A stretch of 10,567 nucleotides of DNA from an uncultured delta proteobacterium (GTDB lineage Bacteria > RBG-13-61-14 > DRUE01). The translations under genes were made by a program, and so were the position numbers. Shown one piece after another: positions 4,179 to 9,642 of this stretch. Where the stretch lies: positions 1 through 10,567 of the forward strand of contig CAIYYW010000302.1 in assembly GCA_903930515.1 (NCBI GenBank), given 5' to 3'. The notes under the pieces were generated by a model that ran no database searches, had not been told where the DNA came from, and saw only the letters and a program-made list of their open reading frames with translations. Position 1 is the stretch's first letter. Each line of letters starts with the position of its first letter.

Positions 4179-4193
4179 GGATTGAGAACCAAA

Positions 4194-4778
4194 ATGTCGG
4201 CCGTGATTAAGTTACTGATGGATTTGCTCAAGACCAATTTCTATTGGATTGATTTCTCCATCGCAACCGCCGCGCTGATCGCGGTCTTTTTGCTTTACCG
4301 CGCCAAAGTCATCGGCAAATATGCCTGGCATCTGTTCTGGCTGGGGTTTGCCCTGGGCTTGTGCTGGGAAGCGCCCCTGTCCTTGCTCAACCAATACAGC
4401 GTCACCCATCCGGCGGCCAAATTCCTCACCCCCCTGCCCACCCATTTTTCCGTCCTGATCATAATGCATTCCTTTTGGGACGGCGGATTGTTCCTGATCG
4501 GGGTCGGGCTGGTGTATCTGGCAAATAAGGCTCGTTGGTTTGAAAAATTTCAAGTCAGGGAACTCCTGATCCTCATCGCTTGGGGACAGGCCTCCGAGCT
4601 TTGGGTGGAACTGATGAGCACATATAACCAAGGCTGGGCATACATTCCCTATTGGTGGAATCCGTCCTTGTTTAAATTCAACGGCTCCGACATCACTTTG
4701 CTCCCGCAACTGATCTGGCTCGTTGCGCCGGTCATTTATTATTTCGCCGCCCTCAAGCTGAAGTCCAGGCCGGCTTAG
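4194..4778 (+). CDS. Unrecognised polytopic membrane protein
   Basis: A 194-residue protein with about five hydrophobic segments (near residues 20-36, 44-60, 84-109, 121-139 and 168-186). Charged or aromatic residues sit inside or at the edges of helices: WEAP (58-61), MHSFWDGG (91-98), ELWVEL (135-140) and a tryptophan-rich loop PYWWNP (152-157). Such intramembrane His, Asp and Glu residues suggest an enzyme or cofactor-binding protein rather than a simple anchor, but I do not recognise the family. There is no clear Shine-Dalgarno, and the predicted leader is only about nine bases, so initiation may be nearly leaderless. It is divergent from the MBL-fold gene and converges with the decarboxylase-family gene 53 bp downstream. 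Confidence 0.8.
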   Translation: MSAVIKLLMDLLKTNFYWIDFSIATAALIAVFLLYRAKVIGKYAWHLFWLGFALGLCWEAPLSLLNQYSVTHPAAKFLTPLPTHFSVLIIMHSFWDGGLFLIGVGLVYLANKARWFEKFQVRELLILIAWGQASELWVELMSTYNQGWAYIPYWWNPSLFKFNGSDITLLPQLIWLVAPVIYYFAALKLKSRPA

Positions 4779-4831: not shown

Positions 4832-5716
4832 TCAGAATTTTATCGTCCTTGCCTGATACCCGGGTTCGGGAAGATCAAAGCAACTGCTCATCAGCGCGGC
4901 GTAGCGGAGCTGGAACGGGTGCGGTTCTATTTCCAGATCCTTGAGCATCCGTCCGCTCGGGGTGTCGTAAATTTTTAAGTATTCCCGGTCCGGTTTGAGA
5001 TTGCTTTTGAACAAACACTTCATATATTTATTGACCTTGAATTCGCCCTGGAAGCAGGTCTGGCTTCTCAGGAATTGTCGGTCCAGCCGGGTGTATAGAT
5101 AGGACTTGACATCAAAATCAGTTGCCGCGCCCGCAGTCGGAACCCGCATCTCAAAATACGGCTCGCCCGATGATTCCTTCGCAATGGTTACGCAGTCCCC
5201 GTCCTTATCGTTGATCTCTATTTCCTGGACCACCTTGGGCAGGCCCCAAATCTTCTGTCCCCGGATCTGGTTCTCCAGAGAAGTCACCGGCATTGAAAAA
5301 ACATAATAGCCGAAGCTGGGAAATATATTGAGGACCATCGGCAAAACCGGCACATTCACCGTCGGTTCCACCATAATCGGGATGGTCATCGCAATCTCGT
5401 TATAAGCCGGAACCCCCAGAACCTTGCGGTAGATATAGCAGGAAAAAGCCACCAATGACCTGCCCTTGGGCATTTTCACCGGCTTAATTCCCGGATCAAG
5501 CATAAGCTTTTGGGCGCGTTTGTAGTTGCACATAAAAATACCGATCGCGCAGGTGACCTCGCCGTAAAAAGTAGGGAATAAATAGGTCTTGCTGATCTTC
5601 TCGGTGAGCGCAAGCGGCTGGAAAGCGGGCCGGAGCTGGAACCGCTGAAAAAAATCGTTCTTGAACTCAGCCGCATTGTCCAGAACCCGGTCAGTAAATT
5701 CAAATGTAGGTTTCAT
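4832..5716 (-). CDS. Acetoacetate decarboxylase family protein
   Basis: A 294-residue protein of the acetoacetate decarboxylase (ADC, PF06314-type) superfamily. The core YNEIAMTIPI (105-114) and the motif GQKIWGLPKVVQEI (153-166) align with the ADC active-site stretch. Lys161 would be the Schiff-base lysine. In clostridial ADC the next residue is a second lysine that lowers the pKa of the first; here it is Val162. Many family members without that pair are not true acetoacetate decarboxylases. GGAGG lies six bases before the ATG, and a strong promoter lies upstream. It is divergent from the oleate-hydratase-like gene, which suggests a linked role in lipid or beta-keto-acid chemistry. The substrate cannot be deduced. 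The length is somewhat above the approximately 245 residues of the classical enzyme. Confidence 0.85.
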   Translation of the reverse strand: MKPTFEFTDRVLDNAAEFKNDFFQRFQLRPAFQPLALTEKISKTYLFPTFYGEVTCAIGIFMCNYKRAQKLMLDPGIKPVKMPKGRSLVAFSCYIYRKVLGVPAYNEIAMTIPIMVEPTVNVPVLPMVLNIFPSFGYYVFSMPVTSLENQIRGQKIWGLPKVVQEIEINDKDGDCVTIAKESSGEPYFEMRVPTAGAATDFDVKSYLYTRLDRQFLRSQTCFQGEFKVNKYMKCLFKSNLKPDREYLKIYDTPSGRMLKDLEIEPHPFQLRYAALMSSCFDLPEPGYQARTIKF

Positions 5717-5899: not shown

Positions 5900-5972
5900 T
5901 GAAGCGGGATCGGTTTCGGGCGCGGATTGCCGCGCCCCTGCTGCAATGTCACAAAAAAGGAGGCAAGGTAAA

Positions 5973-7574
5973 ATGAAGGAGAAAAAGATACCAGCGGTAA
6001 CGGATCAGACGCAAGTCTATCTGGTGGGAGGAGGGATCGCCGGTCTTTCCGCCGCGGTCTTTGCCATCAGGGACGGGCACATTGCCGGGAAGAATATACA
6101 TATCTTTGAAGTGCTGGATGTCCTGGGCGGAGCTTTGGATGGAGGGGGTTCTCCAGACAAATATTATGTCACCCGCGGAGACCGTAAATTTAATATTGAG
6201 GCCTTCAACTGCACCTGGGATCTTTTTTCAGCCATTCCGTCGCTGACCGATCCGAAAAAAACCGTCAAAGATGAATTTTTTGAATACAACAAAACCCACA
6301 AAAAAAACGCCCACTCCCGATTGATAGATAAAAACCATAATAAAGATAATGTGTCCACCATGGGCCTTGGCTGGAGAGACCGGGGTAAATTGCTTTCACT
6401 CATAGTCACTCCTGAAAGTAGGATTGAAAACCGGCGGATTGATTCCTGGTTTGCGCCTTCATTCTTCAAGACCAATTTCTGGAAAGTGTTTTCCTCAATG
6501 TTTGCGCTTGAGTACTGGAATGACCTGGTGGAAATGAATAGATATATGCGGAGGTTTATGCACGATCTTGATCGGATGGTCCAGGGGGGAGGCGAGGTGG
6601 TTACCCCGTATCATAATTATGATTCCATAATTCGGCCGATTACGAAATGGCTGGGAGAGCAAGGGGTCAAATTTGAAATGGGGTGTAAGGTCACTGATTT
6701 GGATTTCAAGCCTACCCCGGATGAATTAACCGTTGAACGGATCCACTACCTTTGCAGGGGAGAAGCGAAAGAAATCGTCGTGAACAAGGGCGACTATGTA
6801 TTCGTTACCAACGGATCAATGACCGCGGATTCCAGGCGCGGGTCTATGACCGATCCCCCCGACCTTGAAACCAGGAAATTGGACGGCTCCTGGACCCTCT
6901 GGGAAAATCTTGCGAAAAAAAGGCCTGGTTTGGGAAACCCCTCTGTTTTTAACGATCATATAAATGAAAGCAAATGGATTACCTTTTGTGTGACCACCAA
7001 GGATCCTACTTTCCTGAAATTATACGAACAGTTCACCGGCAATAAACCGGGGCAGGCGGATATGGTTACTTTCAAGGACTCCAACTGGCATATGTCTATA
7101 ATCGTGCCGCATCAACCGCATTTTATGAATCAGCCCAAGGATGTATTTATGTGGGGGGGGTGCGGCTTGGTCCCGGACCAGGAGGGCAACTATGTAAAGA
7201 TTGAGATGTCCGAATGCAGCGGTAAGGACATCTTGACCGAAGTCTGCCAACAATTCGGGTTTGAGAAGGAGTTGCAGCACATCCTTGAGACCTCAACCTG
7301 TATCCCGAATATGATGCCATATGAAATGAGCCACTTTTTGCCGAGAAAAAAGAGTGACCGGCCCCTGGTGGTGCCGAAAGGATCAACCAACCTGGCGTTT
7401 ATGGGACAGTTCACTGAGAGCGGCGAGTGCGTTATGCTGGTGGAATCCTCGGTCAGATGCGGTCAAATGGCCGTGTATTCCCTGTTCAATCTGGATAAAA
7501 AAGTTCCTCCGGTTTACACCGGGGTACATAATCCCGCGGTATGGTTTAAGGTGCTATCCACCGTGCTCAAGTAG
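5973..7574 (+). CDS. Oleate hydratase (MCRA) family FAD protein, altered catalytic loop
   Basis: A 533-residue flavoprotein of the oleate hydratase family, whose members add water to the cis-9 double bond of free fatty acids. Visible family features are the FAD-binding GGGIAG (19-24), the GG-x-LDG loop (52-57), TWDLFSAIPSL (81-91), EMNRYMRRFMH (187-197), TNGSMT (279-284) and the C-terminal GQFTESGE...VESSVR (478-495). In characterised enzymes the loop reads RGGREME with a catalytic Glu (E122 in Elizabethkingia, E82 in Staphylococcus). Here it reads RGDRKF, with Lys72 at that position. The partner Tyr is kept: Tyr191 lies 119 residues on, the same spacing as E122 to Y241. A different reaction or substrate is therefore possible. 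GGAGG lies nine bases before the ATG. It is divergent from the ADC-family gene and shorter than typical hydratases (about 550-650). Confidence 0.92.
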   Translation: MKEKKIPAVTDQTQVYLVGGGIAGLSAAVFAIRDGHIAGKNIHIFEVLDVLGGALDGGGSPDKYYVTRGDRKFNIEAFNCTWDLFSAIPSLTDPKKTVKDEFFEYNKTHKKNAHSRLIDKNHNKDNVSTMGLGWRDRGKLLSLIVTPESRIENRRIDSWFAPSFFKTNFWKVFSSMFALEYWNDLVEMNRYMRRFMHDLDRMVQGGGEVVTPYHNYDSIIRPITKWLGEQGVKFEMGCKVTDLDFKPTPDELTVERIHYLCRGEAKEIVVNKGDYVFVTNGSMTADSRRGSMTDPPDLETRKLDGSWTLWENLAKKRPGLGNPSVFNDHINESKWITFCVTTKDPTFLKLYEQFTGNKPGQADMVTFKDSNWHMSIIVPHQPHFMNQPKDVFMWGGCGLVPDQEGNYVKIEMSECSGKDILTEVCQQFGFEKELQHILETSTCIPNMMPYEMSHFLPRKKSDRPLVVPKGSTNLAFMGQFTESGECVMLVESSVRCGQMAVYSLFNLDKKVPPVYTGVHNPAVWFKVLSTVLK

Positions 7575-7893: not shown

Positions 7894-9642
7894 ATGAACG
7901 CCAAGGTGGTCGCGTTATTATCGCACCGGCGCATGCCTTTTTTGGCGGCCGCGCTGGGGGCCTTGCTCGTCCTGCCCTCGCTGGGCTTGGGAATCGCGCT
8001 CGATGATTATCTGCAGCGGGCCATCCTCCTCGGCATCCAACCCTATTCCGACGGCACCAGCCCCCTGTTGGCCCTCTTCGATTTCACCAACACCCCTCCG
8101 GGGCCCATCCATCCCCTCGAGATGTTCCCCTGGTACCGCTCTCCCGATCTCCGGATCGGGTTTTTCCGTCCGCTCAGTTCGGCTTTCGCGATGCTCGATT
8201 ACGCGCTCTGGCCGGACAACTTCGCCATCCAGCACCTGCACAGTATTCTCTGGTATGCGGTCGCGGTGCTGGTGGTGGGTCTGCTTTACCGCAAGCTGGG
8301 AGGAGGGGCCGCGGTCGCGGGGCTGGCCGGGCTCTTCTTCGCGGTGGAGGACAGCCACTCCATGCCCGCGGCCTGGCTGGCCAACCGCAACAGCCTCATC
8401 GCGCTGGTGTTCGGCGGGCTTTGCCTGCTCCTGCATTTGGATTGGAGGCGCAAGGGCTCGCGGCCGGCCCTGGCCGGGGCGCTGGTCGCGCTGGCCGCCG
8501 GGCTGCTGGCGGGCGAGTCGGCCATCGCGGCCTTCGCCTACCTGTTTGCCTATCAGGCGTTGCTGGACCGGGGAACCCTGCCTCGGCGGATGCTGGCGTT
8601 GGCGCCGTATGTCGTCGTGATTCTGGCCTGGCGTGCGGTTTACTCCGGGCTGGGCTTTGGCACCACCGGATGCGGCTTGTATTTCGACCCGGCCGCTTCG
8701 CCGCTCAAGTTTGCCATGTATTTGCCGGGGAGGATGTCGCTGCTGATGGTCTCGCAGTGGTTCCAAGCACAAACGGAACCGCTGATGCTCCTGACCATGC
8801 CGCTGCGGATCGGGGCCGGGGTGGCGGCGGGAATGGTGACCGCGATGGTCGGATTCCTGTTCTGGCCGCTCCTGAAGAAAGATCGGGAGGCGCGGTTCTG
8901 GGCGCTGGGCATGGTGATTGCGCTGGTACCGGTGAGTGCCGCCGCGGTCATGGACCGCAACCTGGTATTCGCCGGGATCGGCGCATTCGGGTTGCTGGCG
9001 TTGATGGCCCGCGAGACCGGCCTCTTGGGCGGGCAAGCAACCATCTTCGGATGGCGGAGGACCGGCACCAAGATCCTGGTGTTCATCAACCTCTGGCTCG
9101 CGCTCATCCTCCTGCCCCTGCGCGTGCTTTCCATTCCCTACGGACTCGGCGCGATCACCTCGATCGCCCGGCAAATCCCGATGGAGGAATCCATCCGTGA
9201 CCAGACCCTCTTCTGGATCAACGGCAATGACTTCTTTACTTTTTACACGCCGCTGGCGAGGAGGCTGGAGGGGATTCCCGCGCCCCGCGCCAACTACCAG
9301 CTCGGGTTCTTGACCGGGGAGGTGCGGATGCGGCGCACCGGCGATACCAGCCTCCTCCTTCGACAGCAGCAGGGCTTCATGCCGCGGCCAATCGACATGA
9401 TGTTATGGTCGCCCGAAAACCGTTTCCGGGCCGGGCAGCGCATCTCCATGCCGGAGTTCGAGGCCGAGGTGAAGGAAGTGTTGCCTGACGGCCGGCCGCG
9501 GGCGGTGGAGTTTCATTTTGCCAAGTCTCTGGACTCGACCGCTTACGTTTTCATGTGTCTGGATAACCGGATCCAGGTATGCCGGCCGCCGGAAATCGGG
9601 AAAGAAACGATCCTGGCTGGAGTCTGGTCGGGCAAACGTTAG
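7894..9642 (+). CDS. GT-C-like polytopic membrane protein
   Basis: A 582-residue membrane protein with about ten hydrophobic segments up to residue 412 and a soluble, charged C-terminal part (about 425-582). After the first helix comes ALDDY (35-39), an Asp-Asp pair in the first outer loop as in GT-C lipid-linked-sugar glycosyltransferases. AWLANRNSLIALVF (160-173) resembles a segment of TMTC/PMT-type members. A transferase acting on cell-envelope glycans or proteins is therefore plausible, but the donor, acceptor and exact family are unknown. A weak AAGGGA precedes the ATG. The gene is clearly more GC-rich than its neighbours, with many GCG, CTG, CTC and CGG codons, which may reflect separate origin. 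It has its own promoter and no co-directional neighbour in the window. Confidence 0.75.
   Translation: MNAKVVALLSHRRMPFLAAALGALLVLPSLGLGIALDDYLQRAILLGIQPYSDGTSPLLALFDFTNTPPGPIHPLEMFPWYRSPDLRIGFFRPLSSAFAMLDYALWPDNFAIQHLHSILWYAVAVLVVGLLYRKLGGGAAVAGLAGLFFAVEDSHSMPAAWLANRNSLIALVFGGLCLLLHLDWRRKGSRPALAGALVALAAGLLAGESAIAAFAYLFAYQALLDRGTLPRRMLALAPYVVVILAWRAVYSGLGFGTTGCGLYFDPAASPLKFAMYLPGRMSLLMVSQWFQAQTEPLMLLTMPLRIGAGVAAGMVTAMVGFLFWPLLKKDREARFWALGMVIALVPVSAAAVMDRNLVFAGIGAFGLLALMARETGLLGGQATIFGWRRTGTKILVFINLWLALILLPLRVLSIPYGLGAITSIARQIPMEESIRDQTLFWINGNDFFTFYTPLARRLEGIPAPRANYQLGFLTGEVRMRRTGDTSLLLRQQQGFMPRPIDMMLWSPENRFRAGQRISMPEFEAEVKEVLPDGRPRAVEFHFAKSLDSTAYVFMCLDNRIQVCRPPEIGKETILAGVWSGKR

Follow-up and report, generated by a model that had tools for sequence, protein, structure and literature searches.

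The stretch of DNA analyzed, referred to below as the window, is 10,567 nucleotides long and carries on its forward strand an open, intact reading frame that starts with an ATG, is preceded by a ribosome-binding site and encodes a protein of 533 residues (Table 1). A gene of the acetoacetate decarboxylase (ADC) family is divergently oriented on the other strand. The PF06100 profile matched the 533-residue protein over positions 2-495 of its 495 (599.3 bits, E 8e-180), and the score against the NCBIfam model "oleate hydratase", PRK13977, was 597.9 bits, above the cut-off of 567. The protein is clearly a member of the MCRA/oleate hydratase family, and its gene was the only MCRA gene found in the genome to which the window belongs. 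The FAD-binding N-terminus has the sequence VGGGIAGLSAA, the triplet IFE at residues 44-46 and the lid GGALDGGG. Alignment with five solved hydratases showed that the lid is short and has no HFam3 insertion; the extended FAD lid of 25-27 residues, a hallmark of HFam3, was absent. Pfam and NCBIfam profiles revealed no second cofactor domain. Oleate hydratase as an enzyme (EC 4.2.1.53) hydrates oleate to 10-hydroxystearate, a candidate activity of the protein.

An AlphaFold2 model calculated from ten sequences had a mean pLDDT of 80.4 and a pTM of 0.86, while residues 54-73, which include the lid and the catalytic loop, had a pLDDT below 50. The modeled protein has the oleate hydratase fold. The top 15 matches were all oleate hydratases with Z scores of 38-44 (5odo, 43.7; 7kaz, 43.0), and the next family scored 22. 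Outside the family, phytoene desaturase matched with a Z score of 22, protoporphyrinogen oxidase with 20-21 and the P. acnes isomerase that produces CLA with 19.

Elsewhere in the window, an ORF of 636 residues (1020-2930, +) encodes a GH31-family glycosidase, for which the NCBIfam alpha-xylosidase/alpha-glucosidase models were best, with scores below their cut-offs. Two further ORFs (4182-4778, + and 7894-9642, +) appeared hydrophobic by eye and had no Pfam or NCBIfam match.

Table 1. Positions of the features in the window
Feature	Position	Strand	Basis
Divergent ADC-family (acetoacetate decarboxylase, PF06314) gene, 294 aa; family common to the ADC of the L066 operon	4832..5716	-	Profile and comparison
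Ribosome-binding site GGAGG	5959..5963	+	9 nt upstream of ATG 5973; read from sequence
K-type (Lys-type) MCRA / oleate-hydratase-family flavoprotein, 533 aa	5973..7574	+	PF06100, PRK13977, nearest solved structures
FAD-lid motif GGxxxG, residues 52-59	6126..6149	+	Aligned with five solved hydratases
Catalytic/activation loop RGDRKF, residues 68-73 (canonical RGGREM)	6174..6191	+	phmmer and MAFFT alignments
Lys72, codon AAA, at the position of E122 EmOhy / E82 SaOhyA / M77 ReOhy	6186..6188	+	Alignment
Glu76, substitute acid proposed earlier; not conserved	6198..6200	+	Alignment
Asp184 (Sa S194), invariant in Lys clade; Ser in 26/27 others, Asp in Leu-type L049	6522..6524	+	Alignment
Tyr191 (Y241 EmOhy / Y201 SaOhyA); Phe in clade member L087	6543..6545	+	Alignment
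TNGS motif, residues 279-282	6807..6818	+	Sequence
Pro379 at EmOhy N438 (carboxylate contact)	7107..7109	+	Alignment; N438 role from PMC7306040

Lysine at the position of the catalytic glutamate

A reading of the sequence alone had proposed that the loop RGDRKF places a lysine where characterized hydratases have their catalytic glutamate, with the partner tyrosine and the TNGS motif retained. Both parts of this proposal were borne out. When phmmer aligned the protein with 4ia5, 4uir and the chains from S. aureus, Lys72 lay beneath the Glu of RGGREM, and a MAFFT alignment of 37 sequences put it in the same column as the catalytic Glu. The spacing of 119 residues between Lys72 and Tyr191 was equal to that of E122-Y241 and E82-Y201, and TNGS was present. 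Of the hallmarks of the Glu type, the protein thus has the active site Tyr and lacks the Glu; the Met of the HFam3 hallmark RGGRML is also absent, Lys72 occupying its position.

Whole-genome and contig searches recovered nine relatives with 61-88% identity, one of them a partial sequence of 187 residues. These are L003 (= L010), the nearest relative with 88% identity, from Deltaproteobacteria RBG_13_61_14; L014 from Smithella sp. SDB_sulfate1; L004 (= L013), L012, L015 and L017 from bacterial MAGs; L046 and L087, found in searches around Smithella; and L011. Together with the window protein they formed a monophyletic clade of ten sequences from several lineages in the tree of the 37-sequence alignment (support 100/99). 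The lysine was conserved in all ten members within the loop variants RGDRK, FGDWK, LGDWK, RGDWK, RGARK and HAAWK and, because every member has it, Lys72 is neither a chance substitution nor a sequencing error, the ten having come from separate assemblies. The suggestion that Glu76 serves as a substitute acid did not survive the comparison, since the residue is Glu in only three of the ten members and mostly Lys or Pro in the others.

The sister group of the Lys clade was a pair of Leu-type sequences, L049 and L050, with the loop RGARL (100/99), followed by the Met-type L082 and then by the Met group that includes the R. erythropolis hydratase OhyRe (ReOhy); the midpoint root does not separate OhyRe from the Lys clade. 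Across the root from these were the Glu-type enzymes, interspersed with additional Met types. The tree was rooted by midpoint alone, so that the polarity of the residue change is read from that rooting; a direct change from Glu to Lys is disfavored, as the adjoining branches are Met and Leu types. The earlier proposal that loss of the acid, with fold and Tyr kept, indicates another reaction or another mode of protonation consequently stands in part. The loss itself is real, while the case for a new reaction is weakened, because the Lys clade sits beside Met/Leu enzymes, including the active R. erythropolis hydratase, and the missing loop Glu is by itself not proof of a changed reaction.

The Lys clade is under purifying selection, with a dN/dS of 0.13 between the window protein and L003 and lower values for more distant pairs, in which dS was saturated. 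A scan of viral contigs returned Met- and Glu-type sequences and no further Lys type, and no report of Lys at the catalytic Glu position was found in the papers covered by a literature search. Isoprene reductase (PMC10134865), considered as a lead, is a different enzyme and was set aside. The clade is apparently an undescribed, small branch within the bacterial fatty-acid-hydrating enzymes. The absence of Glu in the family is already known; the strict lysine, the loss of the residues that handle the carboxylate and the operon are new as far as the papers and sequences covered here show.

Several sequences in the set had features of their own. In L011 (249-1853), from a contig labeled Euryarchaeota, an in-frame TAA was found together with the degenerate loop HAAWK, so the gene may be decaying, contain an assembly error or lie on a misbinned contig. 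The active site Tyr is Phe in L087 (G635:C57:14719-16266). Two differing MCRA genes per genome were found in G061/G071 (L012 and L023) and in G110 (L047 and L054); in G061 one is Lys-type and the other a divergent Glu-type (RGERE), which suggests a division of labor. The Leu-type genes L049 and L050 are neighbored by TetR and SDR genes or by hydrolase and MFS genes, and no description of the RGARL loop was found in the literature searched.

Neighborhoods of the Lys-type genes

Lys-type genes were found in operon-like arrays in two lineages. At L066, which belongs to the MAG DX4.bin27, a single strand carries ten genes that encode the Lys-type MCRA protein, TetR, an NAD-epimerase/HSD, ADC, two acyl-CoA dehydrogenases (ACADs), a nitroreductase, a ferredoxin, an SCP2-like thiolase and an AMP-dependent ligase. 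At L065, in Smithella, the genes on one strand encode a thiolase, an AMP ligase, two ACADs, a nitroreductase, a ferredoxin, an SDR and the Lys-type MCRA protein, followed by a TRAP-transporter binding protein. The block ACAD-ACAD-nitroreductase-ferredoxin, with thiolase and CoA ligase, was kept in both (L066:1-10051; L065:9024-18496). A ligase of the same type adjoins the Lys-type gene at L012, a FadL/TodX-type porin is encoded near that at L063, and L015 has a TetR of the same type as L066. The neighbors of L003 differ and encode an M16 peptidase, URO-D and MaoC.

The single ADC gene of the L066 genome (G022, 99% complete) is in the operon, while the genome of the window has five, and the two ADC proteins linked to MCRA genes, in the window and at L066, were 31% identical. 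In the genome of the window, contig C144 encodes a nitroreductase with 66% identity together with a ferredoxin and a thiolase, and contig C357 encodes ACAD-ACAD-ADC, the ADC with 58% identity. Parts of the operon thus exist in this genome, divided between two contigs. Eleven neighborhoods of Glu- and Met-type genes served as controls, some of them short (4.8-17.7 kb); phmmer gave no ADC, nitroreductase, ACAD, ligase or thiolase matches in them, and an SDR was present in one of the eleven. The ADC proteins had no match among solved structures. The operon nitroreductases matched CLA-ER (4qlx) weakly, with E values of 5e-4 and 2e-4, which does not support orthology with CLA-ER. The operon context suggests that such enzymes help to degrade acids in lineages that are poorly known and probably anaerobic, and not that they detoxify host fatty acids.

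Proposed role of Lys72 and alternative readings

In classical hydratases the loop Glu works with a buried water molecule and the loop arginines, Sa R81 and R78, steer the substrate carboxylate (PMC7948970), which in the Elizabethkingia enzyme is bound by T436 and N438 (PMC7306040). The residues that handle the carboxylate also change in the Lys clade. The arginines at Em118 and Em121 were invariant in all 27 sequences outside the clade; within it, six of the ten members have Trp at Em121 and five have Phe, Leu or His at Em118. Em T436 is replaced by Ile, Leu or His (Ile377 in the window protein), Em N438 by Pro (Pro379) in each of the nine sequences that extend over this position, and Em R439 is also lost, so that the window protein has neither the T436 nor the N438 carboxylate contact. 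Lys72 is the only cationic loop residue common to all ten. Because the Arg, T436 and N438 positions change while Lys72 never does, the lysine probably replaces the missing carboxylate grip, not the acid. Glu180 and Asp184 are invariant in the clade, and further clade-specific positions are Phe173 (Sa W183), Leu489 (Sa T507) and Ser492 (Sa Y510). A salt bridge between Lys72 and Asp184 is an idea only.

The reading tentatively preferred, to which we assign somewhat less than an even chance, is that the window protein is a variant hydratase of a distinct Lys-type branch, that it serves a pathway of acid degradation and that Lys72 grips the anion. The substrate would be an unsaturated carboxylic acid, with water added to or removed from one of its isolated double bonds. 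Once FAD is bound, the RGD[RW]K loop would close over the isoalloxazine, and the substrate would be held by its carboxylate, or by some other anionic head, through the ammonium group of Lys72, which would stand in for the classical Arg/Thr/Asn set. As is presumably the case in the Met types, the proton donor would be a buried water, positioned by Tyr191 and the helix dipole, and not a loop Glu. The hydroxylated product would then be handed to enzymes of the short-chain dehydrogenase, ADC and nitroreductase families before it enters CoA-dependent oxidation. The origin of the Lys clade beside Met/Leu enzymes makes it plausible that hydration proceeds with no acid in the loop. About 30% of known hydratases have Met at the Glu position, and OhyRe (Met77) is active (PMC8403116, PMC8994360, PMC13422127), its activity falling approximately 5-fold when the Glu is restored by the M77E substitution (PMC8403116, PMC8994360).

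Several points count against this reading. Unless its charge is paired, a protonated Lys should disfavor hydration, since it sits where the transient hydronium or carbocation arises. The loss of the Tyr in L087 and the stop codon in L011 may reflect another role, or decay, in some members. In addition, the neighbors of L003 differ despite its 88% identity, the nitroreductases are far from CLA-ER and the two ADC proteins are only distantly alike. It is possible, though unlikely, that the Lys-type branch runs a different reaction, for example a flavin-redox reaction or an isomerization of an unsaturated or cyclic acid in an anaerobic, CoA-dependent degradation pathway; Lys72 would then be a catalytic residue new to the fold.

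On a rival reading, to be regarded as rather improbable, the branch would have left hydration for flavin redox or isomerase chemistry in which Lys72, close to the edge of the flavin, stabilizes its reduced form or polarizes a carbonyl and the ferredoxin and nitroreductase supply or accept electrons. The nearest folds outside the family are indeed flavin oxidoreductases, ferredoxin and nitroreductase genes share an operon with the Lys-type gene in two lineages, the backbone at the E82 position touches the flavin in SaOhyA (PMC7948970), and L087 has lost the Tyr. Yet most members retain the Tyr and the FAD-lid motifs, the protein shows no second cofactor domain, and the neighboring Met-type OhyRe is a hydratase without a loop Glu.

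The same enzyme weighs on the still more doubtful proposal that Lys72 is catalytic in hydration itself, either as an ammonium of perturbed pKa that is the general acid for the double bond or as a neutral amine that activates water. Its strict conservation at the exact catalytic position and the invariant Asp184 and Glu180, which could tune its charge, are in keeping with such a role, but the Met/Leu relatives are conserved and OhyRe works with no ionizable group there, and the Lys clade arises beside them, so that an acid or base is dispensable at this position; moreover, one Leu-type sequence has Asp184 as well. The least probable alternative, that the clade consists of non-catalytic or decaying proteins that bind fatty acid or FAD, would account for the lost Glu, for the gate Arg that most members lack, for the lost Tyr of L087 and for the stop codon in L011, but runs against the purifying selection, the intact reading frames of the other full-length members, the strictly kept Lys72 and lid motif and the operon with catabolic genes.

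The field has yet to settle how oleate hydratases work without the loop Glu (PMC8403116, PMC8994360, PMC13422127), and the natural series of Glu, Met, Leu and Lys at one position of one fold offers a direct test of proton handling versus cation stabilization versus substrate grip.

Relation to known systems

The Glu-type enzymes EmOhy (4UIR), SaOhyA (7KAW/7KAZ), LaOhy (4IA6) and StOhy (5Z70) share with the window protein the fold, the FAD motifs, the 119-residue spacing to the Tyr and the GS(M) motif region. In contrast, they have the Glu of RGGREM, the Arg/Thr/Asn-His residues for the carboxylate and a longer C-terminus, and are 35-38% identical to it. OhyRe (HFam3, 5ODO) resembles the window protein in fold (Z 43.7, rmsd 2.0) and in its side of the tree, and neither protein has the loop Glu or long N- and C-terminal extensions. 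The two differ in Met versus Lys, in the 27-residue HFam3 lid of OhyRe versus the short lid, and in the Pro that the window protein has at the His/Asn carboxylate position, and their identity is 36.5%. The CLA-producing fatty acid isomerase of P. acnes (2B9W), in which the flavin has a redox role, is likewise a flavin enzyme with a fatty acid substrate and has a remotely similar fold (Z 18.9), but belongs to another family and is 11% identical.

In Lactiplantibacillus plantarum, CLA-HY, CLA-DH, CLA-DC and CLA-ER act in the saturation of linoleate (PMC9241672, PMC11719350). The MCRA, SDR or epimerase/HSD, ADC and nitroreductase families also co-occur at the Lys-type loci, a likeness at the level of families only. 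The Lys-type loci add a CoA ligase, a thiolase, two ACADs and a ferredoxin, their nitroreductase is not close to CLA-ER, and no Lys-type locus was shown to have the orthologous set. The relation of these loci to the CLA route is best described as a putative functional analogy, not membership.
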